A stretch of DNA of 64,000 nucleotides. Origin: Breoghania sp. Its GTDB lineage: Bacteria > Pseudomonadota > Alphaproteobacteria > Rhizobiales > Stappiaceae. The number at the start of each line of letters is the position of its first letter. Within the stretch, counting starts at the first letter, position 1. The DNA lies in the NCBI RefSeq assembly GCF_030066895.1, contig NZ_JASJAV010000013.1:1-64000 (forward strand). The letters are read 5' to 3'. This document shows positions 6,420-46,591 of the stretch, one piece after another. The translations under genes and the position numbers were made by a program. Below the pieces are notes generated by a model, which made no database searches, had not been told where the DNA came from, and was given only the letters and a program-made list of their open reading frames with translations.

Positions 6420-7676
6420 ATGGATAAGAAAGGACGCTTGTACGGGTGGTGCGTCGTCGCGGCCGCTTGACTCGCCGTGTTCAACCTTTTCGGCTACCGC
6501 TCGACCTTTTCCATTCTGAAGGTACCGATGAGCGCCGAGATGGGATGGTCACAGACGGAAGTCAGCCTAGGTTATTCGATCATGATGGCGATATACGCCG
6601 TCGTCGCCTACGTTTCCGGTTTCATCGTCGACAAATGGGGAACGCGACCGCTCTACGTGGTCGGCGCTGTCCTCGGCATGCTTGGTTTCTGGGGAATGGC
6701 ACAGACCCACAGCCTCTACGGCTACTATGCGGTATTCTGCATTCTCGCCGGTGTTTCCACGACTGGCCTGTGGACGGGGTCGATCGTCTCCTCGTGCAAG
6801 TGGTTCGTCGGTGAAAGCTACGCGCGGATGTGGGGCATTGCCTTCTCCGGCGGCTCGATCGCACAGATTGTCCTCAGCCTCTTCGTCAAGCACTACCTCG
6901 CCAGCGGCGCGGTCGATGCCTGGTGCGGGGCGATGGAGCTGCTCGGCTTCCTGACGCTTGCCCTGTTGGCGCCCGCCGCTGTCCTGGTAAAGCAGGCATC
7001 TGAAACCTACGGCATGAAGCCCTCCGGTCACGTGCCGGATGCCGGCAAGGACGCCCGTGAACCTGCAACCCGCAGTGGGGCCTATTCCAGCTACGCCTTC
7101 TGGGCAGTGGTCGCGGTCTTCGCCTTCTGCACGCTCGGCGAATTCCAGATCTGGAGCCAGCTCGTCAGTTACTGAACCAGCGATCTGCACATGTCACCGT
7201 CTGACGTCACCAACACCTACGTGGTGATCGGCGCGGTGGGCATCTTCTCCATGCCGATCATGGGATGGGCGGCCGACAAGGTCGTGGGCATGTCGCCGAG
7301 CGAGGCTCATGCTCGCAAGCTGATGCTGATCATCGGGCCCGTCATCGCGGTGCTGGCTTGCGGTGTGCTGCTGATGGAATCCGAATCCAGCACCCTGTTC
7401 TGCATCCTGTTTGCCGTCTACTGGGCAATCGTCCCCGGCGGCGTGGTCGGCTATCTCGGCTCGATCTTCGGACGCGGTGCGCTGGGCAGCATCTACAGTC
7501 TCGTTGCCTTGATCTGCATGGGCGGTGGCCTATTCGTCGAACCACTGGTGGGCGGCTACCTGAAAGACGTGTCCGGTGGCTACAGCTACTCCATGGCCTT
7601 CAGCCTCGGCGCCTTCCTGATTGCGGCGCTGATCGCAATGACCCTGCCGCTGGCTCGCAAAATGCCGGCACACTAG
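6420..7676 (+). pseudogene. MFS carrier, oxalate/formate-antiporter-like, two Trp-to-TGA stops
   Basis: Twelve-helix major facilitator of about 418 residues in one continuous frame from ATG 6420. It has the loop 2-3 motif GFIVDKWGTRPL and many hydrophobic helices. TGA at 6468-6470 and at 7173-7175 fall where Trp is expected (AAA-W-LAVFNLF and VSY-W-TSDL). The family resembles OFA-type carriers of organic anions. Located between iorAB and ptb-buk, it may export or import the aryl or acyl acid made by this pathway; that role is inference from position. Confidence 0.75.
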
Positions 7677-7937
7677 GGCGAGGCAGCTGCTGAGACGGAT
7701 CACACTCCGGCCCACGCCTGACCGGTCCGCAGGGCCGAATACCTGAAAACAACATCGCGGGAGATCGTCCCAAGGGCGGTCTCCTTCCCTCTCTGACCTC
7801 GCTCGGCATCTGCCGGGTGAACCGGTTCGTGCGTCCGAATTTCGGACCATTACGGCGAATTTCGGCCAACGATCCGGGGTGAGGCCGGCAATCTGGGGTG
7901 AGGGACGGGCTTTTCCGAAAAGACGGAAGATAAACTC

Positions 7938-8535
7938 ATGGATATGCCAAATCGAATGGATCTGCGTCCGCAAGTCATCGATTCGTTCGAATTCGAAGCC
8001 TTGCGGAAAGCGGCAGTTGCGGGCAAGCCGAGGCGGGTGGCCGTGGTCATTGCCGATGACAACGTCGCGCTCGTGGTCGCGCCCGATATCGACCAGAAGA
8101 AACAGATCATCCTCAACGCGCTGTCGGTTCTGCACGGCCTCGGCAATGCACGCCCGAAAGGCGGTGATGAGCGCGACGGAAGCGGTGTCGGAGGGGCTTC
8201 CCTCGACCGTCGATGCGCGGACGATTGCCGAGATGGGCGCGCGTGGCGAGTTCGGCGAAGCGGATGTCTTCGGTCCGTTCGCGCTCGACAACGCTCTTTG
8301 CCCGGAGGCGGCCAAGGCCAAGGGCATCAGCAATCCGGTCGCCGGAGCTGCCAATTGCCTGATCGCGCCGAGCATCGAGGTCGGCAATTTCCTCGGCAAG
8401 GCCGCCAAGTACTTCAATCGCTCCGCATGTGCCCACGTGGTCGTCGGCGCACGGGTCCCGATCCTCATTCCGTCTCGGGTCGAGAGTATCGAAGACAAGC
8501 TGAATTCCATCGCATTGGGAGTGTTGAATGTCTGA
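7938..8535 (+). pseudogene. ptb: Phosphate butyryltransferase (Ptb), frameshifted and internally shortened
   Basis: Enzyme that converts an acyl-CoA and phosphate to acyl-phosphate. The C-terminal half is typical: DVFGPFALDNALCPEAAKAKG, GAANCLIAPSIEVGN and VVVGARVPILIPSR. The reading frame shifts near 8155. The whole gene is only about 199 codons, whereas Ptb is about 300; the sequence jumps from the N-terminal RRVAVVIADDN directly to a segment that normally lies about 100 residues later (VALVVAPDIDQKKQI), so a block of roughly 300 bp appears to be missing near 8060. It overlaps the start of butyrate kinase by 8 bp, the usual ptb-buk arrangement. Confidence 0.8.
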
Positions 8536-9629
8536 AGCCAAGTACCGGGTGCTCGCGGTTAATCCGGGCTCCACATCCACGAAATTCGGCGTTTTCGGAG
8601 GGGAGGAGATGGTTCGCGACTGGACAGTGCGTCACTCCGACGAGGACCTGAAACCCTTCGCAGGCAAGAGTGTGTTTGCCCAGTTCGACTACCGGCACGC
8701 GCTCGTGCTCGACGAGCTGTCGAAGGCGGGGATCGCCCCTGAAAGCTTCGACGCGGTTGTGGGGCGCGGCGGCAAGCTTCGGCCGATGGAGAGCGGAACC
8801 TGGCAAGTCAACGACGCCATGCTCGACGAACTGCGGGTAGCGCCGTGCGGGGAGCATGCCTCGAACCTCGGGGCCTTCCTTGCGCATGCCATTGCCGAGC
8901 GGGCTGGAGCTCCGGCCTTCATCGTCGATCCGATCTCCGGTCAATGAACGCTCTGAGGTCGCGCGCCTGTCGGGCACCCATCAGATCGAGCGGGCGGGCT
9001 TCTGCCGTGCGCTGAATTCCAAGGTGGTCGGCCGCCGCTTCGCCCGCGAGGTCTCGCGTCCCTACGAGGACCTCAAGCTGGTCGTGGCGCATCTGGGGGG
9101 CGGCATCTGCATTTCCGCGCAGGTCGGTGGCCGGATGATGGACGTGACCGATGCACAGGAAGAGGGGTCTTTTTCTGCCGAGCGCTCCGGTGCCGTGCCG
9201 GTATGCCAGCTTACTTCGTTGTGCTTTTCCGGCCAGTACGCGCGCGTCGAGATCGAGCGGATGCTGGTCGGCGAGGGCGGCTTGAAATCCTATCTCGGGA
9301 CGGCCGACCTGATCGAGGTCGAGCGGCGGATCGAAGCTGGCGACGAGCAGGCCCGGCTGGTCTTCGACGCGATGGCTTATCAGATCGCCAAGGAGATCGG
9401 CGGCATGGCGACCGTGTGCGACGGCGCACTGGATGCGATCGTTCTCACCGGCGGCATGGCCCATTCCAAACGGCTCGTGGAGGCGATTTCGAAGCACGTG
9501 GCCTGGATCACCAGGGTTGTCGTCTATGCGGGTGAGGAAGAATTGCCTGCACTCGCTGCCGGCGCGCTGAGGGTTCTCGCAGGAGAGGAAGCACACGAAC
9601 TGGAGCCGCTTGGCGCCATCGCCGCCTGA
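8528..9629 (+). pseudogene. buk: Butyrate kinase (Buk), frameshifted
   Basis: ASKHA-fold kinase that makes ATP from acyl-phosphate. The phosphate-1 motif is VLAVNPGSTSTKFGVF; VVAHLGGGICISA and VLTGGMAHS are the later nucleotide-binding motifs. The frame shifts by one near 8940 between IVDPIS and VNERSEVARLSG. Total length is about 366 residues, normal for butyrate kinases. With Ptb it allows substrate-level phosphorylation from the CoA thioester produced by IorAB; the natural substrate could be an aryl or branched acyl group rather than butyrate. Confidence 0.87.
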
Positions 9630-9722
9630 GAAAAGCCTGAACCGGAATCGGTACGCACCGCCGGTGAGTTCGCTCATATATCGCGAACGTTCCTGCCTCG
9701 GCGGGTAATCGATCTCCATGCT

Positions 9723-9752
9723 CTGTCAGACGCATCACAGCCTGTCTGACAG
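9723..9752. terminator. Inverted repeat between convergent buk and lrp
   Basis: CTGTCAGAC at 9723-9731 and GTCTGACAG at 9744-9752 are a perfect 9-bp inverted repeat with a 12-base loop. It lies between the ends of two convergent genes and may serve as a bidirectional terminator, though no T tract is present. Confidence 0.5.
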
Positions 9753-9780
9753 GGTGTTCTTCGGGCAACGGCCCGTGCCT

Positions 9781-10254
9781 TCAGTCTTTCCCTGTCGGCT
9801 GCGCTTTGATGGGAAGATGATTTGAGAGTTTCAGTCGCTTGAGAACGATCATCGTCTGGATCTGTTCGATGTAATTTTTGCCGATGAAGGCCCGGTTGAT
9901 CAAATCGTCGAAGTCGGTCAGGCGGGCGACCACGACCTTGGCGATAATGTTCCAGGAACCTGTGGTGCTGTAGATCTCCAGCACGTTGGGTTCCGCCTCC
10001 AGAACCCGCAGCAGGCGGTCGTTGTTCTCGATCGCATGGCTGTGGAAACGGATTTGCACGAAAGCCGTGACGTCGAAACCGAGCGCGGGGAAGGACAGCG
10101 AGGCCTTGTAGCCTTCGATGATTCCTGCCTTCTCGAGTGCCGTTCGCCGGCGCGAACATTGGGATGGCGACAGGCCGACTCGCTCGGCCTTGGTCGCACT
10201 GGCATTGTCCTGCAGGGTCTTCAGGTCGATGGCATCGATACAGGGATCTTGCAT
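9781..10254 (-). CDS. Lrp/AsnC-family transcriptional regulator
   Basis: N-terminal winged helix-turn-helix (ERVGLSPSQCSRRR) followed by an AsnC-type ligand-sensing domain with YSTTGSWNIIAKVV. ATG 10254 is chosen because it gives a family-like N-terminus; the frame remains open upstream to 10326. The first helices look a few residues short compared with typical Lrp proteins. These regulators sense amino acids, and the gene is convergent with ptb-buk, so it is a good candidate to control iorAB-ptb-buk in response to amino-acid supply. Target genes are inferred from position only. Confidence 0.82.
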   Translation of the reverse strand: MQDPCIDAIDLKTLQDNASATKAERVGLSPSQCSRRRTALEKAGIIEGYKASLSFPALGFDVTAFVQIRFHSHAIENNDRLLRVLEAEPNVLEIYSTTGSWNIIAKVVVARLTDFDDLINRAFIGKNYIEQIQTMIVLKRLKLSNHLPIKAQPTGKD

Positions 10255-10527
10255 GGGCAGGCTCACTACCTCCGTCTGGTGCAGGAAGTTGGCATTTTTG
10301 ACGCAGATTTTGCACCAAAAGCGCATACATGGTCGATAAGTAAAATTCAGTCAAAGACGCGTCGATTCGAAATTTTTCACATTAATTTTGGGGGGTATAA
10401 ATGAAAAAATTCCTATATATAAATTAATGTTATTATCGTTATGGCGTTTTAGTTTCTCGAAACAGTGGATCTTAGGAGGCGGTTGGAGTTGTGAACAACT
10501 TTAGAATGATTGATTAAATATCCTTGA
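10255..10527. other. AT-rich divergent regulatory region between the Lrp and LysR genes
   Basis: About 270 bp between two divergently transcribed regulators; its central 180 bp is very AT-rich, with long A/T runs. It should hold both promoters. No clean palindromic operator stands out. The N-terminal codons of the LysR gene may extend back into this stretch but are interrupted by stops at 10507 and 10525. Confidence 0.35.
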
Positions 10528-26986: not shown

Positions 26987-27361
26987 TCAGTGACTGATCA
27001 TCCACGGCCGTTTGGCGGGGAAGGTCTTGTCGCCATCGGCGATGAAGACGGTGCCTGCCTTTGACGAGCCTATCCCCGAGCAGCATGCGCATACCGCCGG
27101 GTGGCGTTTGGCGCGTTTCTCAGATACGGCTGCCTACGGGCTGTCGCGCGTGGAAAACTGCGGGGTGTGGCGGGCGCGTTCATTCGTTGCCAGCGCCGTG
27201 CGTCGTTCGGCGGACAATCCCGACATGTGGTGCACTTGCAGGAGGACCCGGGGGGCCTCCTGCTTGCACGCCGGACACGCGATCGGATCCGCATGGGCCG
27301 ACATCGGGCGAAGTGCCGTGATCGGACCGCAGTCGGGACACATGTAATCGTAGACCGGCAT
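26987..27361 (-). pseudogene. FmdB-family zinc-ribbon protein, one nonsense codon
   Basis: Small putative regulator or accessory protein starting MPVYDYMCPDCG with a second pair CPAC. The frame continues past a TAG at 27136-27134, where Glu is likely, through SEKRAKRHPAVCACC and ends in the family hallmark RPWMISH before TGA at 26989-26987. It is 124 codons long, close to known FmdB proteins. It follows formamidase by 11 bp, the usual fmdA-fmdB order, in the urea/amide operon. Confidence 0.8.
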
Positions 27362-27372
27362 GGTTGCCTCCT

Positions 27373-28602
27373 TCAGAGATCCGGTGCCAGAGGAACGTCG
27401 ATGGATCCGTCGAGATGCATGATCGGACCGTCCGCTCCCGGCATCATGTCGAATTCGAAGATGTCGGTCGGCAGCCACAGCGTTGCGCAGGCATTGGGAA
27501 CGTCGACGACGCCCGAGACGTGTCCCTGCACCGGCGCCGTGCCCAGGATCGCGTAGCCCTGTGCACCCGTGTAGCCGAATTTCTCCAGGTATTCGATGGC
27601 GTTGAGACAGGCTATGCGATAGGCGACATGGACGTCCAGATAGTGCTGCGTGTCCGCCTCATCGACAGAGATGCTCTCGAAGATCATATAGTCGTCGTAT
27701 TTCGGCACGATCGGGGAGGGCTTGAAGATCGGGTTCTTGACCCCGTATTTCGCCATCCCGTCCTTGATCAGCGTGACGCGGATATGCAGCCAGCCCGCCA
27801 TTTCGATGGTGTCGCAGAAGGTGATATCGCCGTCGCCCTGGCTGAAGTGCAGATCGCCCATGGAAAGCCCCGCACCGTTCACATAGGCGGGGAAATAGAT
27901 CTTGGAGCCGCGCGAAAGATCCTTGATGTCGCAGTTGCCGCCGTGCTCGCGCGGGGGAACGGTGCGCGCCGCTTCGGCCGCTGCCGCATCGCGCGCCTCG
28001 CCCTTCATCTGGCCCATATGGGCGGACTGCGTGTTGGGCAGGTTGGCAAGCCCCGGCACGCGGTCCGGGTCGGTGTTGAAGAGCGCGGTTTCGCGCGCAT
28101 TCCAGTCATCCAGCATCTTGCGGTCCAGCAGGCAGCCGATGAGACCGGGATGGATCAGTCCCGCATAGCGCACGCCGGGAACGTGGCGCGACTTGGTGAA
28201 CATGCCTTCGAAATCCCAGATCGACTTCTGGGCTTCCGGAAAATGCTCGGTCAGGAAGCCACCGCCATTCTGCTTGGAAAAGAAGCCGTTGAAGCCCCAC
28301 AGCATCTCTTCCTTGGTGCCGATATCGAGAATGTCGACCACCAGAAGATCGTCGGGCTCCGCGCCCTTCACGCCGATCGGTCCGGAGAGATAATGGACCT
28401 GCTCCAGCTCCACGTCGCGCATGTCTGCGGCATCGTCGTTGTTTCCGATCTGGCCACCGGTCCAGCCATACGTTTCGATTTTGAAATCGTCGCTCGGTTC
28501 CACCCACACCGCCATGGGGATGTCGGGATGCCAGCGATTGTGCACCTTCTCGTTTGTGTGCGGGGATTCCTTCAGGTCCGCTGAGATCAGCGTATCGGCC
28601 AT
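27373..28602 (-). CDS. fmdA: Formamidase
   Basis: Intact 409-residue acetamidase/formamidase-family enzyme that hydrolyses formamide (and short amides) to formate and ammonia. Family segments include GPIGVKGAEPDDLLVVDILD, FPGVRY-like HVPGVRYAGLIHPG and NGAGLSMGDLHFSQGDGDI with His and Asp residues of the metal site. It is encoded last but one in the leftward urtABCDE-fmdA-fmdB operon, so the ABC transporter probably supplies both urea and short amides. Start ATG 28602 gives the normal length. Confidence 0.93.
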   Translation of the reverse strand: MADTLISADLKESPHTNEKVHNRWHPDIPMAVWVEPSDDFKIETYGWTGGQIGNNDDAADMRDVELEQVHYLSGPIGVKGAEPDDLLVVDILDIGTKEEMLWGFNGFFSKQNGGGFLTEHFPEAQKSIWDFEGMFTKSRHVPGVRYAGLIHPGLIGCLLDRKMLDDWNARETALFNTDPDRVPGLANLPNTQSAHMGQMKGEARDAAAAEAARTVPPREHGGNCDIKDLSRGSKIYFPAYVNGAGLSMGDLHFSQGDGDITFCDTIEMAGWLHIRVTLIKDGMAKYGVKNPIFKPSPIVPKYDDYMIFESISVDEADTQHYLDVHVAYRIACLNAIEYLEKFGYTGAQGYAILGTAPVQGHVSGVVDVPNACATLWLPTDIFEFDMMPGADGPIMHLDGSIDVPLAPDL

Positions 28603-28656: not shown

Positions 28657-29346
28657 TCACACGGACAGGAAGCCGGCGACCTTTTCCTCATCGATTTGCG
28701 CGCGCAGCTCGTCATGGACGAGGCGGCCGTTTTCGAGCACCAGGATCCGGTCCGCGACATCGAGCGCGAAGGACAGCACCTGTTCGGATACGACGATCGA
28801 CAGGCCGCGCTCATCGCGAATGCGCCTAAGAACGCGGGCCATTTCGCGGATGATCGAGGGCTGGATGCCTTCCGTCGGTTCGTCGAGAAGCAGCACCTTC
28901 GGATTGGTGGCGAGCGCACGGGCGATGGCGATCTGTTGCTGGTGGCCGCCCGAAAGGTTGCCACCTCGCCGGTTCTTCATGTCGAGCAGCACGGGAAACA
29001 GCTCGTAGATGCCGTCCGGCACCTTGGATGTTCCTGACAGGGTGAGGCCGGTATCGATGTTTTCCTGCACCGTCATGGTCTGGAAGATCATCCGTCCCTG
29101 CGGTACGTAGGCGACGCCCTGGGCCACATGCTCGAAGCTCTTCAGCGACGTGATGTCCGTGCCGTCGACCATCGCGTGGCCCTCGCTTGTCGGCACGATG
29201 CCCATGAGCGACTTCATCAGCATCGTCTTGCCCATGCCGTTGCGCCCCATGATGGCGACGATCTCGCCTGGCGCGATGGTGAAATCGAGGCCGTGCAGCA
29301 CTTCGCTCTGGCCGTAGGCGGCATGGTAGTGATCCACTTGCAGCAT
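28657..29346 (-). CDS. urtE: Urea ABC transporter ATP-binding subunit UrtE
   Basis: Intact 229-residue ATPase of the branched-chain/urea type (LivF-like). Walker A is GRNGMGKTMLMKSL, the signature is LSGGHQQQIAIARAL and Walker B VLLLDEPTEG, followed by QPSIIREM, all typical of UrtE. It is the last ABC gene of the operon, separated by 9 bp from urtD. Confidence 0.93.
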   Translation of the reverse strand: MLQVDHYHAAYGQSEVLHGLDFTIAPGEIVAIMGRNGMGKTMLMKSLMGIVPTSEGHAMVDGTDITSLKSFEHVAQGVAYVPQGRMIFQTMTVQENIDTGLTLSGTSKVPDGIYELFPVLLDMKNRRGGNLSGGHQQQIAIARALATNPKVLLLDEPTEGIQPSIIREMARVLRRIRDERGLSIVVSEQVLSFALDVADRILVLENGRLVHDELRAQIDEEKVAGFLSV

Positions 29347-29355
29347 GGTGGCCTC

Positions 29356-30113
29356 CTAATGCCCGAGATAGACGTCGATGACCTTGGGATCGGCCTGCAC
29401 CTTGGCCATGGAGCCCTCCGAGAGGACCTGGCCCTGATGCAGCACGGTGACCCGGTTGGCGATGTCCTCCACGAACTTCATGTCGTGTTCGACCACCAGC
29501 ACCGAGCGTCCCTTGGTGATTTCGTTGAGAAGCTTCGCGATCTGCACGCGTTCCGAAACGCTCATGCCCGCCACCGGCTCATCCAGCATCAGAAGTTCCG
29601 GGGCCTGGATCAGCAGCATGCCGATCTCCAGCCACTACTTCTGGCCGTGACTGAGAAGGGCGGCCTGCTTGTCGAGTAACTCGTCGAGGAACGCCATCTC
29701 GGCGATCTCGCGCACCCGCGAGATCACTTCAGCGTCCCGCTTGAAGGTGAGCGCTCCGAAGACGTTGCGACCCCGCGCGGGAAGTAAATCTTGAGGTTCT
29801 CGAAGACGGTCAGATCCTCGTAGATCGACGGATTCTGGAACTTCCGCCCCACCCCTTCGCGCACGATCTCGTGCTCCTTCATCTCGGTCAGTTCGCGGTT
29901 GCGGAACTTGATCGAACCGTCGCTGGCCTTGGTTCGCCCGCAAATGAGATCGAGCACTGTGATCTTGCCGGCCCCGTTCGGGCCGATGATCACGTGGATC
30001 TCGTTCTCGTCCACATAGAGGTTGGGGTCGTTGACCGCCTTGAACCCGTCGAAGGAGACCGTGAGATTCTCGATTGCGAGCAGGAAGTCGGTGTTGTTGG
30101 AAAGCGTGTTCAT
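29356..30113 (-). pseudogene. urtD: Urea ABC transporter ATP-binding subunit UrtD, disrupted
   Basis: LivG-like ATPase. Walker A reads GPNGAGKIT: the Thr after Lys, which binds magnesium, is Ile (ATC for ACC). A frameshift occurs near 29775 after LKIYFPRG, and a TAG at 29637-29635 replaces Gln in SHGQK-Q-WLEIGM, the ABC signature region. Walker B LLMLDEPVAGMS and switch His in VVEHDM are intact. ATG 30113 overlaps the urtC stop. If real, the Walker A change alone would inactivate this subunit. Confidence 0.88.
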
Positions 30114-31267
30114 CGCGCCGTACTCCTGTCGGGGGGTATTCCGCGGCCTGCGGGTCTTCCAGCGGCGCATCCGAAGAGGCGTCGGGGTGGGAGCCTGCGG
30201 TTGACGAGCGGGGCCAGATAGCTGCGGTAGACACCGGCCAGACCATTGGGGAAGATGGGGACGACGGCGATGAAGAGCGCGCCCAGGCCGAACAGTCACA
30301 GTTCCGGGAAGGTCTCGGAGAAGGTGGTCTTGGCCCAGTTCACCAGCAGCGTGCCGTAGACCGCGCCGAAGATCGAAAGCCGTCCGCCGACCGCGGTGTA
30401 GATGACCATCTCGATCGACGGCACGATGCCGACGAAGGAGGGCGACATGAACCCGACCTGCAGCGTGAACATCGCCTCGCCGATTGACGACAGCATGGCG
30501 GCAAAGCAGAAGACGAAGATCTTGAAGTTGGCCACATCGTAGCCGGAAAAGCGGACCCGGTCCTCCTTGTCGCGCACCGCCACCAGAAGATGCCCGAGCT
30601 TGCTCTTCAGGATGAACAGACACACGACCAGCACGCCGAGCAGCAATCCGGCATTGAGGAAATAGAGGACGTATTTCGCGCTGTCGGTGCGGATGTCCCA
30701 GCCCATCAAGGTGCGCAGGTCGGTGATGCCGTTGACACCGCCCGTGTAGCCCTGCTGGCCGATGATCAGGATCGTCAGGATGGCGGCAATCGCCTGCGTG
30801 ATGATGGCGAAGTAGACGCCGCCGACGCGCCGCTTGAACATCGCCGCGCCGATGATGAAGGCGAAGAGCACCGGCAGGACGAGAACAGCGATCACCGTGA
30901 AGGTGAAGCTGTGGAAGGGCTCCCAGAACCAGGGCAGTTCGGTGAGCTGGTTTCAGTCCATGAAGTCGGGGATGCCGGGTGTGGACTGGATCTTGGTGAC
31001 CTCCGGCGTGGAGGCCTCCAGTTTCAGGAACATCGCCATGCAGTAGCCGCCGAGGCCGAAGAAAATGCCCTGACCGAGGCTGAGGATGCCGCCCATGCCC
31101 CAGCACAGGATCAGGCCGATGGCGATGAAGGCGTAGGTCAGGTACTTGCCGATCAGGTTGAGGCGGAAGATGTCGACCGACAGCGGCAGGATCACCACGA
31201 TCAGCAGGGCGAGAACGGCCAGAGCCAGCAGGTCCCGGCGGTTGAGAAAGGCTTTTGCGTTGGTCAT
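30110..31267 (-). pseudogene. urtC: Urea ABC transporter permease UrtC, two Trp-to-TGA stops
   Basis: LivM-type permease of about 385 residues in a single frame. It has the permease loop GGVNGITDL and many hydrophobic helices. TGA codons at 30955-30953 (FMD-W-NQLTELPWFW) and 30298-30296 (FPEL-W-LFGLGALF) fall on conserved Trp positions. ATG 31267 is 12 bp from the urtB stop. The frame ends at a TGA overlapping the urtD ATG. Confidence 0.87.
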
Positions 31268-31278
31268 GACGATCTCTC

Positions 31279-32209
31279 TCAGCGGCGGATTTTGGCGGAG
31301 AACAGGCCCTCGGGGCGCAGCATCAGGATGCCGACGACGGTCAGGAGCGTGAGCATCTTGGCCATCGACCCGGACAGAAAGAACTCCATGGTCGACTGCG
31401 CCTGAGAGATGGCGAAGGAGGAAGCGATGGTGCCGACGAGGATCGTCGCGCCGCCGAAGACGACGATCAGTAAGGTGTCGACGATGTAGAGCTGGCCGGC
31501 GGTCGGCCCGGTGGAGCCGATCATGGTGAAAGCGGAACCCGCGATGCCGGCAATGCCGCAGCCCAGGGCGAAGGTCTTGCGATCGACCTGTTCGGTGTTG
31601 ATGTCGACGGCGCCGGCCATGACGCAGTTCTGAACGACCGCGTGGGTCTGACGGCCCATGCGCGAGCGGAACATCACGACATAGACGCCGATGGCGATGA
31701 TCAGCGTCAGCTCCATCACGAACAGGCCGTTGATCGGGACCTCGATGACGTCGGTCAGCGCGACGGAGCCGAACATCCAGTCGGGCAGGCTCACGCCGAC
31801 CTTGCGCGCGCCGAAGATCGAGCGATAGGCTTGCTGCAGGATCAGGCTCGGATCCCAGGTCGCCGGCAGCGTGTCGAGCGGTCGCTTGTAGAGGTGACGA
31901 ATCAGCGCCCATTCCACCAGCGCCCCCGAGGGCTCCGGAGGCAAGGAAGGCGAGGATCATCGCGAAGAAGAAGTAGATGCCGAAGAGGCTCGGCACATAG
32001 ATCTGCACCACGTGGGAGCACAGATAGGTGACATAGTATGCCCCCAGGATCATGAACTCGCCGTGGGCCATGTTGATGACGCCCATCTGGCCGAAAATGA
32101 TCGCCAGACCGAGCGCCATGAGAACGAAGACCGAGAACAGGATGAGCCCGGCGAACCCTTGCGTGGCGAAGATGGAGCCGAGTTCCGACCAGGTGTAATC
32201 GGCGAACAT
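31279..32209 (-). pseudogene. urtB: Urea ABC transporter permease UrtB, frameshifted
   Basis: LivH-type permease. It starts MFADYTWSELGSIFATQGFAG and includes GQMGVINMAHGEFM, the classic LivH motif, and MGRQTHAVVQN in the cytoplasmic loop that contacts the ATPase. The frame shifts near 31940 in helix 3. Otherwise it is complete to the C-terminal RPEGLFSAKIRR. Urea-type permeases of this group carry long periplasmic inserts, as seen here around 31800-31900. Confidence 0.88.
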
Positions 32210-32346
32210 GCGCGCGCCTCCATGGGTGAGGGCACGGGGCCCCGAAGAAGATGGATGAAATGCGGATCCGGGCGTTGAGCGGGGGAGGGGCGAATTGGCC
32301 TCGATGGGAGAGCCGTTTGCCCCGATCCGTGACGGCTAGGCGCCGA

Positions 32347-33621
32347 TCACTGGTAGCCTTCGGGGAACGGATCGGGCTCCATCAGCTCTTCCGTCTCGTA
32401 GATCACTTCGTACTGACCGTCGGTCTTGGTGTGGCCGACGCGGGTCTTCGACCAGAGGTGGTGGTTCTCGTGGATGCGGACATAGCCTTCCGGCGCGGTG
32501 GTCAGCTCGATGCCCGGCGGCGAGGCGACCTTGATCTTGTTGATGTTGAAGGATCCGGCCTTCTCCACCGTGGCTTTCCACAGCCATGGATCGAGATAAA
32601 CGGCCTGGGTGACGTCGCCGATGAAGATCTCGTCGCCCCACATCTCCTTGAATACCTTGACGAAGGCTTTGTTGTTGTCGTTGTCGAGGGACTGGAAGTC
32701 CTTCATCGTGGCATAGGCGCCGGCAATGTTTTCGCCGCCGATGCTGAGGATCTCATCCTCGGTGACCGAAATCGTGAGAAGCAGCGGCTTCTCATTGGTC
32801 ATGTCGATGCCCGCGGCCTTCAGCTGCTTGTAGAAGGCGACGTTCGATCCGCCGACGACGATGGCGTAGATCACGTCGGGCTTCTTGAGCTTGATCTTGT
32901 TGATGACCGAGTTGAACTGGGTGTGGCCGAGCGGATATTACTCCTCGCCGACGACCTTGAGCCCGAGTTTCTCGATGTGCTTGCGCGCGATCTTGTTCGA
33001 GGTGCGCGGCCAGATGTAGTCGGAGCCGAACAGGAAGAAGCTCTTGGCGCCCTTTTCCTTGGTCACCCAGTTGATGCCCGCCATGATCTGCTGGGTCGCT
33101 TCCTGGCCGGTGTAGATGACGTTCGGACTCTCCTCTAGGCCTTCGTAGAAGGTCGGGTAGTAGAGCATGCCGTTATATTGCTCGAAGACCGGCAGAACGG
33201 CCTTGCGCGAAGCGGACGTCCAGCAACCGAACATCGAGGCCATCTTGTCGTTGACCAGCAGTTTCTTGGCCTTTTCGGCAAAGGTCGGCCAGTCGGAGGC
33301 GCCGTCTTCCCGGATGAACTCGATCTTGCGGCCGAGCACGCCGCCCATCTCGTTGATCTGCTTGATGGCGAGCTTTTCCGCCTGGACGGAACCGGTTTCC
33401 GAAATCGCCATGGTGCCGGTCATGGAATGAAGGATCCTGACCTTGACCGTGTCGTCGGTGACGGCGAGGCCGGTGGTATCGACGTCGTCTGCGCGCACCG
33501 GGGCGGAGCCGAGCGGGCCGAAGGCGGTCAGCGCGAGCGCCGTTGCCGCGCCCAGCATCACGCCGCGCCGCGAATACCCGAACCGGGTGCTGCGGGCAAT
33601 TTGGGGATCGAGGTCATTCAT
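32347..33621 (-). pseudogene. urtA: Urea ABC transporter substrate-binding protein UrtA, one nonsense codon
   Basis: Periplasmic binding protein of about 424 residues. The N-terminus has a Tat-type signal (SRRGVMLGAATALALTAFG). Conserved features include ILHSMTGTMAISE, REDGASDWPTFAEKA and MFGCWTSASRKAVLPVFE, all typical of urea/short-amide binders. TAA at 32940-32938 lies where VGEE-Y-YPLGHTQF is expected (Tyr). ATG 33621 is the first gene of the leftward operon, facing the divergent sensor kinase gene across about 520 bp. Confidence 0.9.
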
Positions 33622-34141
33622 GGTCTTAAGCCACCTCCTGTCTGGGCTGTCGCTAGGGGGCCGGCATTGGCGCACCGCATGACAGGAGACTCGCGGAAAA
33701 TTATGCAACGCAAAAATACGTCAGTTGCTGTGGGTTAATTGACGTATTCTGATTTCATTCGCTTCCATGCGAGATTTTCCGCGGGAATCGTTAAAAAATA
33801 AAAAAATCGAATCCAAAACTGAGAAAATCTCAATGATCTACGTTTAATCGATCGAGATTTCTTGCATGTTATAATTATATTTAGAATTTATATATGTATT
33901 TTTTGCATGATCTGAGATGTTATTGGTATGGATATTGTTATTAGATTTATATATTTAATATATAAAACAATATTTTGGATCCAATTCCGCAACGATGCCT
34001 GGAGATTAAGCCGGCGCGTGTCAAACGATGCTGCGATGCACAAAAAATGAGCCTGTCCGCTCCCTTGTCCCCGGGGCCCGTGACCACCGGAGAGGAAGTC
34101 GGAAAGGCAGCCTTTGAGGCGTTGGCGGGACGGGGGGTGAA
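33622..34141. other. AT-rich divergent promoter region between urtA and the sensor kinase
   Basis: About 520 bp, of which 33780-33990 is extremely AT-rich. It must contain the promoters of the urt-fmd operon and of the transporter-kinase gene, and probably the binding site of the LuxR-type regulator at 37585-38497. A TGACGTATT-type motif and its imperfect inverse occur around 33717-33750 (TACGTCAGTT and TTGACGTATT). No coding sequence is supported. Confidence 0.4.
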
Positions 34142-37100
34142 ATGGCAAGTCATCAGCGGGTTGTGCGTCTGCGCCGAACCTACAATCAGTGGGTCGCCAA
34201 TCAGACTCTGGAAGACTATGCGCTGCGGTTTACCGCCAAGAACGGGCGGCGCTGGTCGGCGGTGCGCGTGGCCAATACCGTGCTGGGTGCCATCTCGTTT
34301 CTGGCGCTGGAAGTCATCGGCGCGGCAATCACCCTGAATTACGGTTTCACCAACGCGGTCAGCTCGATCGCCGTCGTCAGCCTGCTGATCTTCATCACCG
34401 GTCTGCCGATCGCCTACTACGCGGTGAAATACGGCGTCGATATCGATCTTCTGACCCGTGGAGCGGGCTTCGGCTATATCGGCTCCACGGTCACCTCGCT
34501 GATCTATGCGACCTTCATCTTCGTCTTCTTCGCACTGGAAGCGGCCATCATGGCCGCCGCGCTTGAGCTGTTTCTCGGCGTCCCGCTCAATCTCGGATAC
34601 TTCTTGTGCGCCGTGATCATCATTTCCCTGGTGGTTTACGGTATCACGCTGATCAGCCTGTTGCAGGTCTATACCCAGCCCCTGTGGATCGCCCTGCAGC
34701 TTCTGCCTTTCGCGTTTCTCGCCTGGCAGGGACTGGCGCCGTTTGAGGAATGGTGGTCCTTTGCGGGCAATCAGGGGGAGAGGAACGGAAACTTCGATCT
34801 GCTGCTCTTCGGGGCGGCGAGCACGGTCGTCTTTTCGCTGATCGCCCAGATTGGCGAACAGGTCGATTTCCTGCGCTTCCTGCCGCGCGGGCGCTGGTGG
34901 TTGTCGCTGCTGGCCGCGGGGCTGGGCTGGATCGTCGTCGGCGCGCTGAAGCTGCTGATGGGGTCGTTTCTCGTCGTGCTCGCCGTTTCCGGCGGCATGC
35001 CCGCGACGCTGGCGCTCGAACCCACCCACATGTACCTCGTTACCTTCCAGCACTTAGCGACGCCCGAACTCGCCGTGGCGCTGACCGACATCTTCGTGAT
35101 CGTGTGTCAGATCAAGATCAAAGTCACCAATTCCTATGTGGGCTCGATCGCCTGGTCGAACTTCTTCTCCCGTCTCACCCACAGCCATTCCGGTCGCGTC
35201 ATGTGGCTGGTCTTCAACGTCGCCATCGCGCTCGTCCTGATGGAGCTCGGCGTCTACACCGCTCTGGAACGCACGCTCGGGCTCTATTCCATCGTCGTCG
35301 TCTGGATCGGAGCGATCTTCGCCGATCTCGTCATCAACAAGCCGCTCGGGCTCAGCCCGCCGGCATATCGAGTTCAAGTGCGCCCATCTCTACGACGTCA
35401 ATCCGGTCGGGCTCGGCTCCATAGGGCTCGCCTGCCTGATCGCGTTCACTTGCTATTCCGGCGCATTCGGCGATGTCGTGCAGGCACTGGCGAGTTTCAT
35501 CGCGCTGGTGACCGCCGCCGTCACGGCGCCGCTGATCGCCTATGCCACCGGCGGGAGCTACTACCTTGCGCGCAAGGCGGAGAGTTTTGCGGGCGAGGAC
35601 GGCAAGAGCCCGGCCCGGTTGCGCTGCTGTATCTGCGAACATGAATTTGAGATCGAGGACATGGCGCAACGCCCGGTCTATTCGGGCCCGGTCTGCTCGC
35701 TGTGCTGTTCGCTCGATGCGCGCTGCGAGGACGACTGCAAGACGGATGCGCGCGTTCAGGATCAGGTGCACGGCCTGCTGGAGGCGCTGTTGCCGGAGGC
35801 GTGACGACGCGCCTGAATTCGCGGCTGGGCCAGTATCTCGGCATCATGCTGATCATCAGTCTGACGCTCGGCGGGATCCTGTCCTTTGGATATTACGGGG
35901 CCGTGCCGCACGGCGGTTCCGAAATCGAGATCCGGCCCGATACCGGCGCGCGCGAAAGCGTCGGCACCGCTCTGACACAGGTCTATTTCATCCTGCTGAT
36001 CATTTCCGGCGTCATCGCCTGGCTCTTCGTGCTGGTTCATGAAAGCCGTAAGGTCGCCAACGAGGAGACCCGTCGCCAGACGAGCCTTCTCATGCGCGAG
36101 ATCCGGGCCCACAGCCGAAACGACCGCAAGCTTCAGCGCGCCAAGGAGGTGGCGGAGGCGGCCAATCACGCCAAAAGCCGCTATGTCATCGGCATCAGCC
36201 ACGAACTGCGCTCGCCGCTCAACGCCATATCCGGTTACGCGCAGCTCATCCGCCGCGATCCCGTGATCCCCGAGCATAGCCGCGAGACCATCGACGTGAT
36301 CAAGAACTCGGCCGATCACCTGGCCGGTCTGATCGAGGGGCTGCTCGACATCTCGAAGATCGAGGCGGGGCATCTGACGATCTACCGCGAGTGCTTCAAC
36401 CTGCACGAGTTGCTCACCCAGATCGTCGACATGTTCCGTCTGCAGGCCGATGCCAAGGTGATAGATTTCGTCTATGCGCCGAGCGACTACCTGCCCACGC
36501 ATGTCTACGGCAACGAGAAGCGTCTCCGTCAGGTGCTGATCAATCTCCTGTCGAACGCCATCAAGTGGACGCATGAGGGCGGCGTCACGCTGGAGGTGAA
36601 CTATCACAGCCAGGTGGCCGAATTCTCCGTCATCGATACCGGCATCGGCATCGTGCCGGAGAATCTCGACCGCATCTTCATTCCCTTTGAGCGGGTCGAT
36701 GACCGCGAGGGCGCACCGCCCGTTCCCGGCATGGGGCTCGGGCTCGCGATCACCAAGCTTCTGGCCGAGGTAATGGGCGGAGACATCCGGGTCGAAAGCA
36801 TGCCGGAGAAGGGCAGCACGTTCCTCGTCCGCATCCTGCTTTCAAGCGCCCAGCAGCCGATGGAACCGCAATCGCCGGAAAAGGCGATCCTGGGATTATG
36901 AAGGCCCGACGCAGACGGTCATGGTCGTCGATGACGATCCCGCGCAGCGCAATCTGGTGCGCGATTTCCTCTCTCCACTCGGCTTCAAGGTCCTGTCGAT
37001 CGGTGACGGCAGGACGTGTCTGGAGGCGGTTGCCGTCGAGCAGCCGGACGTCTTCCTGCTCGACATCTCCATGCCGGGCATGACCGGTTGTGATCTGGCC

Positions 37101-37607
37101 CGCAGGCTTCGCCAGTGGGGTCACGAGGCGGCAGTGATCATCATGATCTCGGCCAATGCGGATGAGCGCGGCCGCGACCCGGTTCACCGCGTCTTCCACG
37201 ACGACTACCTGAGCAAACCCTTCCGATTGACGGATCTCCTCAAGCGGCTTCAAAGCCAACTGCGGATCGAGTGGCGCACGGGCGAGCGCGAGGAGGAACT
37301 GGTGCAGGCCGCGCCGACGTCGCCTCGCGCTGCGACCTCTGGCCCCTCCGCCCCGAAACGTTCCGCGCCGCGAGCCGGGCCTTTCGTGTCCGCAGCCCAT
37401 CCCTCGGAAGCCAGTCTTGAGATGTTGCGACAGCTCACCCGCATGGGCCATGTGCGCGCGATCCGCGAGAAGTTCGACGAGATCGCGGCGCGCGAGCCTC
37501 AAGCTGCGGACTTCGTCGATCAGATGCGCGTGCTGGTGAAGGAATTCGACATCAAGCGTTATGAACAGCTTTTGGAGACAGTCGATGGTGATGATGGCCA
37601 CGCCTAA
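34142..37607 (+). pseudogene. Transporter-fused hybrid histidine kinase: NCS1 permease, Cys-rich module, kinase, receiver; frameshifted
   Basis: The N-terminal 440 residues are a purine/cytosine/allantoin-type permease (NCS1) with about 12 helices (ANTVLGAISFLALEVIGAAI, then GAGFGYIGSTV). A Cys-rich module follows (CCICEHEF, then CSLCCSLDARCEDDCK, 35620-35745). After further helices comes the kinase core with HELRSPLNAISGYAQLI (phospho-His), NLLSNAIKW (N box), DTGIGI and GMGLGLAI (G boxes). The C-terminus is a receiver with MVVDDDP, LLDISMPGM (phospho-Asp) and SKPFR, then an Hpt-like helical tail. Frameshifts lie near 35360, 35805 and 36895. Its place opposite urtA indicates a urea/amide sensor in which the permease domain acts as ligand receptor. 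Confidence 0.82.
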
Positions 37608-38497
37608 TCCCAGCGATATGGTTCTCGTCGACGACGACACCCCTTCATCGCTGGGCATGCTCACCAAATTCGCTTGAGGAGGCGGGCTACACGGTGCTGG
37701 TCGCCCCTGACGGCCTGCACGCGCTCGATATCGTCGCCCGCATCACGCCGAACGCCGTGTTGATGGATGCCGTGATGCCCGACCTCGGCAGGTTCGAGAC
37801 CGTCAAGTGGCTGCAGGACATGGAGGGTCTGCGCAATGTTCCGATCATCTTCATGACGGGGCTCAGCGACACGGAAAACGTCGTGCGCGGGCTGGAGGCG
37901 GGCCGCGTCGATTCTGTCACCAAGCCGGTCAACACGGACGAGCTTCTGGCTCGCCTCCGGGTGCACATCGCCAATGCCCGCAGCGCCGAAAGCGCCCATG
38001 TGGCGCTCGATGCGTCCGGCCGGTTCCTGCTGTCCGCGTCCGTGTCAGGGCGGGTGCGCTGGCGCACGCCGCAGGCGGCCGCCCTGCTGGGGCTGGATCG
38101 TCTGCCCGACGAATGCCTGCCGTGGCTGCGCGAGGTGGTTGCCGGGGCCGGTTCGGTGCGGGGAAGCGAGGTGGAGGATTTCTTCGTCGAGCGGGACGGT
38201 GTCAGTCTGCGCTTTTACTATGTGGGCGCGATCTCGTCGAGCGAGCATCTCCTGTGCATCGCGCAGGGTGCCCGCGATGCAGCCGGCGATACCTTGCGCA
38301 GCGAATTCAACCTCACCGAACGCGAAGCGGAAGTGCTCGTGTGGATCATGAGCGGCAAGTCGAACAAGGAAATTGCCTCGATCCTGGAAATGAGCCCCAG
38401 AACGGTCAACAAGCATCTCGACCGTATCTTCGCAAAATTCGGCGTGGAGAACCGGACCGCTGCGGCGATTCTGTCCCTGAAGCGGCTGATCGATTGA
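37585..38497 (+). pseudogene. LuxR-type response regulator, frameshifted near the start
   Basis: The receiver domain begins SDMVLVDDDTPSS, with phospho-Asp in AVLMDAVMPD and Lys in VTKPVNT; a middle PAS-like segment of about 100 residues follows, then a LuxR helix-turn-helix (LTEREAEVLVWIMSGKSNKEIA). ATG 37585 overlaps the end of the kinase gene. The frame shifts near 37670 (A run) between SLGMLT and LEEAGYTVL. It is the natural output partner of the upstream transporter-kinase and probably controls urt-fmd. Confidence 0.82.
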
Positions 38498-40343: not shown

Positions 40344-41251
40344 ATGCTGAGATACGCCTTCAAACGGCTTCTTGCGGCGATTCCGACCCTGTTCGTGATC
40401 GTCACTGCCGCCTTTTTCCTGATCCAGGTGGCGCCCGGTGGACCGTTCAATCTGGAACGACCGCTGGAAGCCAAGGTGATGGAAAATCTCAATCGCATCT
40501 ACCATCTGGATGCACCGCTCTGGCAGCAGTACCTGAGTTATCTCGGCAATCTCCTCACAGATGATTTCGGTCCAAGTCTCGTCTATCGCGATTTCTCCGT
40601 GGGCGAGCTCTTCGCCGCTGGTCTGCCGGTCTCCGTCCAGCTCGGCGGTTCGGCGCTCGTTCTGGCGCTTCTCACTGGAACCTCGCTCGGCATCGCAGCA
40701 GCACTCCGGCACAACCGCGCCGCGGATCTGGGTGCGGTAACGCTCGCCACTCTCGGCATCACCACCCCGCACCGCTCCTGTCGCTGATTTTCGGTGTCTG
40801 GCTCGGCTGGCTACCTGCGGGCGGCTGGGGTGACGGGGCGCTATCCTACAAGATCCTGCCTATCGTCATCCTCGCCCTGCCCGCAGATCGCGGTAATCAC
40901 CCGGCTCACCCGTGCGGCGATGATCGAGTCGCTTTCCTCCCATTCGGTGCAAACCACGCGCGCCTATGGGCTCAGATGGTGGACGGTGGTCGTCGTCCAC
41001 GCGTTGCGATCAGCCATTCTGCCGGTTGTCTCCTATGCCGGACCGGCGGCAGCTCTGATGACCGGCTCCATAGTGGTCGAAACCATCTTCGGCGTGCCGG
41101 GGGGGGGGGCTACTTCGTGCAGGCGGCGTTGAACCGCGACTACACGCTCGTCATGGGTAAGGTAGTCGTCGTCGCCTGCTTCGTCATCGTCTTCAATCTT
41201 GTGGTCGATCTGATCTACGCCGTGATCGATCCGCGTGTGCGTTATGGGTGA
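40344..41251 (+). pseudogene. Peptide ABC transporter permease, OppB-like, frameshifted
   Basis: Starts MLRYAFKRLLAAIPTLFVIVTAAFFLIQVAPGGPF, the textbook OppB/DppB N-terminus. The EAA-type loop lies around 40915-41000 (MIESLSSHSVQTTRAYG). Frames change near 40770 (after LATLGITTP), near 40885 and in a run of nine Gs at 41100-41108, with the last segment ALNRDYTLVMGK and VDLIYAVIDPRVRYG typical of the family. It ends at TGA 41251, directly followed by the OppC-like gene. Confidence 0.82.
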
Positions 41252-45190: not shown

Positions 45191-45325
45191 CAACCTCGCC
45201 TTCGCCTGATCCCGGCCGCTAGCATTCGCGGGGCAGCGGAGCTCTGTGTCGGGGACGGCCTTGCGGCAGGGGCCGATCGCCGATTATGCCTGATGGGTCC
45301 GGCAGACTCAGGGAAAGGCATTGCG

Positions 45326-46591
45326 ATGGTTGATCTCGTCGTCCGTAACGTCCTCGTCGAAGGGTATCGTACTGCGGTCGATATCGCGGTCGAGGAGGGG
45401 CGCATCGTCGGGATCTCGCAGGTAGTCCCCTCCCGCGAGACAGATCCTGACGCTGAGATCATCGACGGCAAGGGCGCGCTGCTCACCCCCGGTTTCGTCG
45501 AAAGCCATATTCACCTCGACAAGGCCTGCATTCTCGACCGTTGCCGCAATGAGACCGGAATGCTGGAAGGGGCCATCGCTTCGGTCGTCGTCGCCAAGAA
45601 GAATTTCGACCGCGATGACGTCTATGCGCGTGGCCGGAAGTTCATCGAGAAGGCGATCGTCGAGGGCACCAACGCCATGCGCACCCATGTCGAGATCAAT
45701 CCGGTGATCGGCCTGAAGGGATTCGAGGCAGTGAAGCAGTTGAAGGCGGACTACACCTGGGCGCTCGACTTGCAGATCTGCGTCTTCCCCCGGGACGAGC
45801 TGACCAACCTTCCCGGCACGCGGGAACTGCTTGAGCAGGCACTCGATGCGGGCGCCGATCTCCTCGGCGGCTGTCCCTATACAGATACCGACCCGGCAGC
45901 CCAGATCCGCATCCTGTTCGAGATGGCGTGCCGACACGACGTCGACCTCGACTTCCATCTCGATTTCGATCTCGATCCCACCGGCGGCGACCTGCGCGAG
46001 GTCGCGCGTCAGACGGTCGCCTTCGGCTGGCAGGGGAGGGTGACGATCGGCCATGTGACCAAACTCTCCGCCATGCCGCGTGCGCAATTGATGGATATGG
46101 CGGAAGTGATGAAACAGGCCGGTGTGGCGCTGACCGTGCTGCCCGCGACCGACCTGTTCCTGATGGGCCGCGATCACGACCACCTCGTGCCGTGCGGTGT
46201 GAGTCCGGCGCACGTGCTTCATCGCCATGGGGTATGCTGCACCGTGGCGACCAACAACGTGCTCAATCTCTTCACGCCATATGGCGACTGTTCGTTACCG
46301 CGCATCGCCAATCTCTATGCCAATGTCCAGCAGTTGAGCACGCAGGAGGAACTCGGCGCTTGCTTTGCCATGGTGACGTCCGAGCCGGACCGTCTGATCC
46401 GCCGCAATGCCCGCATCGAACCGGGCGCGCCGGCCACTTTCATCGAACTGCCCGCGGCAAGCGGCGGGCAGGCGGTGGCGGAAATCGCAAGGCCTCTGTG
46501 GGGCATGAAGTCCGGCCGCATGACCTTCGTTCGGCCGGAAGCGGAGCTGCGATTTCCCGGCAACCCGATCGCCCGAGCACCGCAGGCCTGA
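45326..46591 (+). CDS. Cytosine-deaminase/AtzC-like amidohydrolase
   Basis: Intact 421-residue metal-dependent hydrolase of the amidohydrolase superfamily. Metal and catalytic residues appear in VESHIHLDKA (HxH), DFHLDFDLDP (His, Glu/Asp region), TIGHVTKLS (His) and LPATDLFLMGRDHD (Asp). The order and the TP-Y-G segment resemble CodA/AtzC enzymes that deaminate cytosine or triazine amines. ATG 45326 gives a family-like N-terminus LVVRNVLVEGYRTAVDI. Given the urea and purine-permease-like genes nearby, an N-heterocycle salvage role is possible, but the substrate is unknown. Confidence 0.83.
   Translation: MVDLVVRNVLVEGYRTAVDIAVEEGRIVGISQVVPSRETDPDAEIIDGKGALLTPGFVESHIHLDKACILDRCRNETGMLEGAIASVVVAKKNFDRDDVYARGRKFIEKAIVEGTNAMRTHVEINPVIGLKGFEAVKQLKADYTWALDLQICVFPRDELTNLPGTRELLEQALDAGADLLGGCPYTDTDPAAQIRILFEMACRHDVDLDFHLDFDLDPTGGDLREVARQTVAFGWQGRVTIGHVTKLSAMPRAQLMDMAEVMKQAGVALTVLPATDLFLMGRDHDHLVPCGVSPAHVLHRHGVCCTVATNNVLNLFTPYGDCSLPRIANLYANVQQLSTQEELGACFAMVTSEPDRLIRRNARIEPGAPATFIELPAASGGQAVAEIARPLWGMKSGRMTFVRPEAELRFPGNPIARAPQA

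Follow-up and report, generated by a model that had tools for sequence, protein, structure and literature searches.

A permease-fused hybrid histidine kinase beside a urea and formamide operon in Breoghania as a candidate receptor for urea

The window analyzed here, 64,000 nucleotides of Breoghania sp. (RefSeq assembly GCF_030066895.1, contig NZ_JASJAV010000013.1, positions 1 to 64,000), carries at positions 34142-38497 of its forward strand a hybrid histidine kinase that begins as a permease, followed by a LuxR-type response regulator. Both are divergent from urtABCDE-fmdAB, which lies on the opposite strand from about 33621 down to 27000, as an earlier sequence-only reading of this DNA had described. 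We propose that the fused kinase serves as a receptor (transceptor) derived from a transporter, with urea and similar small amides such as formamide as its ligands, and that it controls the urt-fmd genes or urease; judging from sequence comparisons, we give this proposal a probability of about 0.62. The choice of ligand is well supported by gene order. To our knowledge, the sensing of urea as such by bacteria is largely undescribed. Urea sensing is made testable by a receptor that has a clear gene neighborhood, that Sinorhizobium meliloti 1021, a model rhizobium, encodes on pSymB and that is common among the plasmid records searched.

In the mechanism that we envisage, urea or a small amide would bind the permease domain, which has the NCS1/LeuT fold, and the ensuing conformational change would travel to the kinase core by way of a cytoplasmic cysteine (Cys) module and then a membrane hairpin. 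The Cys module is probably a metal-holding CxxC...CxxC knuckle that came from the permease's own C-terminal tail and was enlarged in the kinases. Phosphate would then reach the LuxR-type regulator, which would switch on the divergent urtABCDE-fmdAB genes or, in other species, urease or amidase genes. The regulator may act through a CGTCA-N16-TGACG site upstream of urtA.

The permease-kinase family is real and widespread. Among its close relatives, defined as the best 80 of 346 loci (14 from Roseibium, Labrenzia and Stappia and nearly all the rest from Bradyrhizobium), 77 have the kinase as a single open reading frame (ORF) of 1123-1175 residues; the other three (L020, L031 and L072) fell outside the position filter and were not judged. 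These proteins of about 1,130 residues share one domain order: NCS1-fold permease, Cys module, membrane hairpin, kinase and receiver, with the LuxR-type regulator encoded next. In the 1140-residue Roseibium protein, HisKA, HATPase_c and the receiver are found in one chain by Pfam, and no Pfam family matches upstream of residue 684 at E up to 0.01. The intact 302-residue regulator of Chelatococcus has both a receiver and a GerE helix-turn-helix (HTH; NarL/FixJ type), and the PAS-like middle once read into the regulator finds no Pfam match there at E up to 0.01. The corresponding features of the window are as follows.

34142..35362, + strand: first part of the NCS1-fold permease domain (81% identity to residues 6-421 of the Roseibium kinase at 34136-35362, frame 2)
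35349..35615, + strand: end of the permease domain, in a different frame (63% identity to Roseibium residues 417-566 at 35349-35798, frame 3)
35616..35741, + strand: Cys module (seven of eight invariant Cys, the third being Arg, plus one variable Cys)
35799..36899, + strand: third segment, with a likely two-helix membrane hairpin and then the HisKA and HATPase_c core (E 3.2e-17 and E 5.1e-25)
36900..37607, + strand: fourth segment, with the hybrid-kinase receiver and C-terminal tail (Response_reg E 5.3e-24; 62% identity to Roseibium residues 918-1137)
37598..38497, + strand: LuxR/NarL-type response regulator, start approximate, with a break at about 37666 (Response_reg E 3.8e-14 and GerE E 7.6e-20, both on the second piece)

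The permease, the Cys cluster, the kinase domains HisKA and HATPase_c, the receiver and the LuxR-type HTH can be located in the window, in accord with the sequence-only reading. The statement of that reading that permease, Cys module, kinase and receiver form one chain holds for the relatives and fails for the window, where the kinase aligns to its Roseibium homologue in four segments of alternating frame (34136-35362, 35349-35798, 35717-36895 and 36879-37595) and the regulator aligns to that of Roseibium in two frame pieces. The permease-like domain as a whole extends over 34136-35798, and the open frame at 34142-35644 is out of register beyond about 35362. We place the membrane hairpin by reading the sequence and from helices in a low-confidence model of the Roseibium relative.

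The case for urea comes from the neighborhoods of the fused loci. Within a reach of about 9 kb, we found urt, fmdA, aliphatic amidase or urease genes near the kinase in 20 of 25 alphaproteobacterial loci and in 50 of 52 further fused loci; the two misses among the latter lie on short stretches (L207, 10.9 kb; L237, 4.8 kb). Where urtA is present, the kinase is usually divergent from the nearest copy (56 of 61 loci), and at least two urt genes are in reach in 79 of the 80 close relatives, the exception (L031) beginning too close to a contig end. Six kinases (L190, L191, L209, L210, L218 and L220) stand back to back with ureA, with 150-400 bases between the aligned parts. In four of these loci, neither urt nor fmdA occurs in the stretch; of the other two, L190 has one urtA 8 kb away and L209 has a urt set. 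The loci paired with ureA point to urea as the shared ligand. A kinase with its regulator was also seen without a urea or amide gene in reach at a Tistrella locus (L141) and at three loci of one genus (L123, L132 and L133).

The same neighborhoods could be read as pointing to formamide or another short-chain amide in place of urea, with the Urt-like transporter actually carrying amides. Such a ligand would suit the loci in which fmdA accompanies urt (fmdA is present in 11 of 25 alphaproteobacterial and 33 of 52 further loci), some of them having aliphatic amidase too (2 of 25 and 18 of 52), as well as two fusions that lack the receiver and lie near fmdA without urt (L205 and L217). A 2026 paper, in the part that bears on this question, takes gene order as a hint that formamide may be a substrate of such a transporter (PMC13209695). 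Against a formamide receptor stand the six kinases paired with ureA, of which four lack both urt and fmdA in the stretch, and the three of 10 kinase-less permeases that adjoin urease operons, two of these three being near-identical. Moreover, when the residues of 40 fmd-linked kinases were compared with those of 18 linked to urease or to other urt genes, no column separated the two classes at 75%/70%, as would be expected if both bind the same ligand. We therefore regard formamide or another amide as the sole ligand as unlikely, and prefer a receptor for urea together with its close analogues, because this one fold is accompanied now by urease alone, now by formamidase and now by amidases.

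Permeases of the same family that have no kinase lead to a similar picture. We examined 10 (including L139 and L140) of 18 records (H111-H128), which look kinase-less by length or annotation, and found that urease, formamidase or amidase genes adjoin seven of them. The neighbors are urease operons in Acinetobacter lwoffii, Acinetobacter ursingii (with near-identical genes) and Klebsiella, fmdA in Moraxella and Tsukamurella, and an aliphatic amidase in Arthrobacter; the Methylovirgula permease has an aliphatic amidase, a formamidase and a fused kinase alongside. The permease of Acinetobacter baumannii is back to back with a fused kinase and has only kinase and regulator as neighbors. Eight of the kinase-less proteins are 39-52% identical to the Chelatococcus kinase. 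In databases they are called allantoin permease, cytosine permease or hypothetical protein, with cytosine and hypothetical names outnumbering "allantoin permease" two to one and two records unannotated there. Three that lie near urease or formamidase illustrate the spread of names: L177 8956-10563 is annotated as a cytosine permease, L139 8950-10557 as a hypothetical protein and L178 8926-10569 as an allantoin permease. We also considered that the kinase-less permease might take up nickel, which urease needs, and rejected this idea, since the same permeases adjoin formamidase or aliphatic amidase and HupE/UreJ is already beside two of them.

The permease had been named as the probable receptor in the sequence-only reading, and the urea and amide genes near most kinase loci, the six pairings with ureA and the seven of 10 kinase-less relatives all agree with that view. 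That reading had also found it noteworthy that urea should be sensed through an NCS1 fold. Urea sensing of this kind now appears less odd, given that the permeases form a separate, unnamed NCS1 branch whose neighbors point to urea and short amides. The kinase-less relatives beside urease operons may represent an unrecognized means of taking up urea or amides, which annotation at present either assigns to allantoin or cytosine or leaves without a name. Tentatively, and with more doubt than for the receptor itself, we suggest that the members of the unnamed branch, which databases name allantoin or cytosine permeases, carry urea and short amides and end in a tail that holds metal. Kinase-fused receptors would have arisen from this branch, and their enlarged Cys module would join amide binding with metal or redox state in a single output that governs the use of urea and amides throughout Pseudomonadota.

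Those NCS1 relatives whose function is known transport compounds such as allantoin, hydantoin and cytosine. If the permease likewise sensed a product of purine breakdown, the urea genes would be induced ahead of need, urea being the end product of that route. The known substrates of the relatives and the annotation of some homologues as allantoin or cytosine permeases fit this explanation. Against it, urease, formamidase or amidase lies beside seven of the 10 kinase-less permeases, and allantoinase, hydantoinase and cytosine deaminase are absent from the annotated neighborhoods examined, among which the plasmid gene tables are incomplete. The window does carry an amidohydrolase gene (45293-46591) with an intact frame and, by eye, of cytosine-deaminase type; a comparison with 210 related loci, a large share of them ending just a few kb beyond the regulator, gave no counterpart at 35% identity or more. 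A purine-derived ligand is thus improbable, the least probable of the alternatives that we considered.

The assignment of the permease domain to NCS1 is supported by fold, and the domain is almost invisible to sequence models. An AlphaFold model of residues 1-660 of the Roseibium relative, built with 21 related sequences as input and of low confidence, matched Mhp1 (Z 22.0 over 407 residues, 4.9 Å) and CodB (Z 21.4 over 376 residues, 4.5 Å) at the head of the list, in agreement with the NCS1 type first proposed from the sequence. Among the best 50 of 972 chains aligned, the top non-NCS1 structure reached Z 18.1, and SLC5 structures ranked under NCS1, the best one seen being NIS (Z 16.3). The first three rows given by Foldseek were identical to those of the Z-score search. 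By sequence, PF02133 matches one of 18 family members (E 1.1e-9) and nothing in this genome at E up to 0.001, whereas at E up to 0.1 TIGR00800 matches one of the 18 and the cytosine permease model NF008241 five. A profile search of the PDB with the permease returned no chain at E up to 1. Mapping of individual residues to Mhp1 was ruled out, because neither the profile nor the single-sequence PDB searches gave an NCS1 chain. The domain thus resembles Mhp1 and CodB in its predicted fold and differs from them in its very distant sequence and in neighbors that suggest urea and amides.

Between permease and kinase, the relatives have a module with the pattern CxxC-x11-C-x7-CxxCC-x5-C-x3-C. The eight Cys are invariant: among the aligned fused proteins, 137 of 137 have the complete set (near-copies are included; with thinning at 80% identity the figure is 39 of 39), and so do 27 of 27 further fused proteins, which makes 164 of 164 readable relatives. 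The 32 entries omitted from the alignment comprise 28 that were rechecked (27 with the full motif), two pieces of the second copy in the Breoghania genome and two distant NCS1 proteins; on recheck, no Cys motif was found in the frame-broken L136. The second copy, on contig C7, has all eight Cys. Judged from these alignments, the pattern is beyond chance. The sequence-only reading had tied its view of the module to conservation of the Cys residues, and the residues prove to be invariant. In the window, eight Cys codons are indeed found (starting at 35625, 35628, 35634, 35694, 35703, 35706, 35724 and 35736), but the third invariant Cys is replaced by Arg and a variable extra Cys restores the count to eight, so that the cluster of eight or more Cys in the sequence-only reading stands in number and not in every position.

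The module had also been described as a metal or redox switch that links transport to kinase output. Its conservation agrees with that description, but it is not specific to the kinases: eight of the 10 kinase-less permeases have the CxxC...CSLC core as a C-terminal tail, and a switch is for this reason only one option among several. Of the four Cys outside the core, one occurs in three of the 10 kinase-less permeases and three in the Methylovirgula protein only. The Cys core therefore appears to have come with the permease, while most of the rest goes with the kinase. Two CxxC motifs in the module and a weak likeness to three rubredoxins (E 0.41-0.51 and not significant; one member was searched against the PDB with E up to 10 allowed and matched nothing else) would fit a metal knuckle and prove nothing. 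One could go further and regard the Cys module as the actual sensor, which would gate the kinase as a metal or redox switch while the permease only reports transport. The eight invariant Cys speak for such a role, as does the scarcity of the non-core Cys among the kinase-less permeases. The presence of the four core Cys in eight of 10 permeases without a kinase and their loss in two, together with the insignificant rubredoxin resemblance (E 0.41), speak against it, and we consider a sensing role centered on the module to be quite unlikely. Under the preferred reading, in which the permease is the receptor, the module would serve to transmit the signal.

On this reading the fused kinase would work like CbrA or KsAmt5, yet it is neither. 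Like the SLC5-STAC kinases CbrA, CrbS and RpuS, it joins a secondary transporter of the LeuT superfamily through a soluble linker to a histidine kinase, and CrbS and RpuS are described, in parts of two papers, as lying with LuxR-family regulators (PMC9100948, PMC13022988). Unlike in the CbrA type, the permease here best fits the NCS1 structures Mhp1 and CodB, a Cys module stands in place of the four-helix STAC linker and an additional membrane hairpin precedes the kinase; the earlier statement that the linker differs from that of CbrA-type sensors is supported, in that the Cys module occupies the STAC position. No SSF family of Pfam matched the full-length relative at E up to 0.01, a weak test given that Pfam misses NCS1 too, and STAC gave no match in the Pfam scan, for which presence of a STAC model in the library was not checked. 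KsAmt5 is an ammonium sensor in which the Amt transporter fold acts as the receptor and is fused to a histidine kinase, as related in portions of PMC5764959 and PMC8534201. Both proteins have the fold of a nitrogen-source transporter turned receptor with a histidine kinase attached, but the fold is Amt in KsAmt5 and NCS1 here: no Pfam Amt match was found at E up to 0.01, and the fold matches the LeuT type. AruS of Pseudomonas, which was considered as well, is described together with solute-binding proteins. Among sensor kinases fused to transporters, the present family stands out by its new linker and by a permease branch that has no name.

Related urt, formamidase or urease genes are described without this kinase in the relevant parts of three papers (PMC13209695, PMC13060141, PMC8472584). 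On the Klebsiella plasmid CP024483, amiF-urtEDCBA is divergent from this kinase and its regulator, and the gene names suggest that this is the urea cluster ("UTS": UrtABC/AmiF) described in part of a report on Klebsiella CG307. That part of the report (PMC13060141) leaves the kinase unmentioned, and nowhere does the report's text use "histidine kinase" or "two-component". Other transporter-kinase fusions are treated in parts of PMC13022988, PMC9100948 and PMC8534201, and a different relation between transporter and receptor in a part of PMC11109136. Among the best matches in the open full-text literature, with subscription journals outside coverage, we recognized nothing on this kinase or on urea transport by NCS1-like proteins.

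Several observations weigh against a urea receptor of the kind proposed. The window kinase is frame-broken, and Arg replaces one of its invariant Cys. The AlphaFold model is poor, with a mean predicted local distance difference test score of 55.6 (predicted template modeling score 0.59), and its least reliable region contains the Cys module. Urea and amide genes are missing within reach of five of the 25 alphaproteobacterial loci (L123, L126, L132, L133 and L136, of which three belong to a single genus), and three of the 10 kinase-less permeases (two from Streptomyces and one from A. baumannii) have no such neighbors. The Cys core is lost in two Actinobacterial permeases (Arthrobacter and Tsukamurella). 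In addition, the 80 closest loci are drawn from few genera and are not independent.

The operon and the intergenic region on the other side of the kinase have the following features in the window.

32347..33621, - strand: urtA, binding protein of the urea ATP-binding cassette (ABC) transporter, start inferred, with a break at about 32,900 (two ORFs, the first piece matching TIGR03407 at E 1.8e-84 but short of the cut-off for a whole protein)
31282..32212, - strand: urtB, with a break at about 31926 (92% and 87% identity, two frames)
30179..31267, - strand: urtC, single frame (87% identity, 363 residues)
29440..30150, - strand: urtD, two pieces, limits approximate (two tblastn places, at 29.4 and 29.8 kb)
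28657..29346, - strand: urtE (ORF of 229 residues; 72% identity to Chelatococcus UrtE)
27373..28602, - strand: fmdA, formamidase, intact (NF045496, 725 bits against a cut-off of 500)
27000..27370, - strand: fmdB, FmdB-type zinc-ribbon protein, limits approximate (47% identity in a tblastn match at 27.0 kb)
33719..33744, no strand: putative operator CGTCA-N16-TGACG upstream of urtA (a conserved block whose function is conjectural)

Three whole UrtA proteins from clusters of differing kinds score above the threshold set for the urea model TIGR03407. The first 25 bases of the CGTCA/TGACG block recur with 0-4 mismatches in 14 of 14 Roseibium, Labrenzia and Stappia loci (L001-L014); outside these, the core of the block was found among 264 loci only in the window's own stretch (L100). 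The block is a candidate operator only. No Rfam riboswitch matched before urtA at E up to 1 in 33500-34200, and a pattern scan of 20 stretches for sigma-54 sites gave none in the intergenic stretch of the window and one in L001.

The window copy may not work, given the frame breaks in the kinase, in the regulator and in some of the urt genes. The whole system could be decaying and without function in this genome, a serious prospect that we put somewhat below even odds. Breaks are found in the kinase, the regulator, urtA, urtB, urtD, the second kinase copy (L134) and ureC, at the same time as a single long frame spans each of rpoB, rpoC, gyrB and ileS. Decay is less easily reconciled with an identity to Roseibium that stays high in spite of the breaks (first kinase segment, 81%; urtB, 87-92%) and with intact fmdA, urtE and urtC, and local assembly errors are possible. 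Gene decay and local assembly error both fit the breaks of the window copy.

A second permease-kinase of the same family occurs in the Breoghania genome on contig C7 (L134, 8.8-13.1 kb), where it is frame-broken and lies near a second kind of urt operon. Frame breaks at high protein identity affect several metabolic genes of this genome (29400-38497 in the window, C48:62014-63708 and C7:41773-43460), which would suit early gene decay or local assembly errors. A functional link of the window kinase to the amidohydrolase at 45293, PurU (44328) and ABC transporter pieces (39054 and 41235) was considered and dropped: when the four proteins were compared with 210 related loci, only the permease at 41235 matched, in two loci.

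Across genomes, the permease-Cys query matches 27 of 385 from Alphaproteobacteria, a count that includes the Breoghania genome and one distant NCS1 protein. With the kinase-less Acinetobacter permease as query, 59 of 398 Pseudomonadota genomes match at E up to 1e-6, seven of them by weak or short matches only. In a quick tree, the kinase-less permeases form one group (support 99) and the hybrid kinases the rest, with L205 and L217 apart. The latter two are the receiver-less fusions (L205 at about 9.0 kb; L217 at 7663-10347), which consist of NCS1 permease, Cys module and kinase in about 890 residues; both have fmdA within about 5 kb, and a receiver-kinase protein adjoins that of L217. Searching a plasmid collection with the permease-Cys query gave matches in 342 Klebsiella records, the kinase not having been checked in each. 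The one Klebsiella record examined whole is a conjugative IncFIB/IncFII plasmid that carries amiF, urtEDCBA, the kinase and the regulator.

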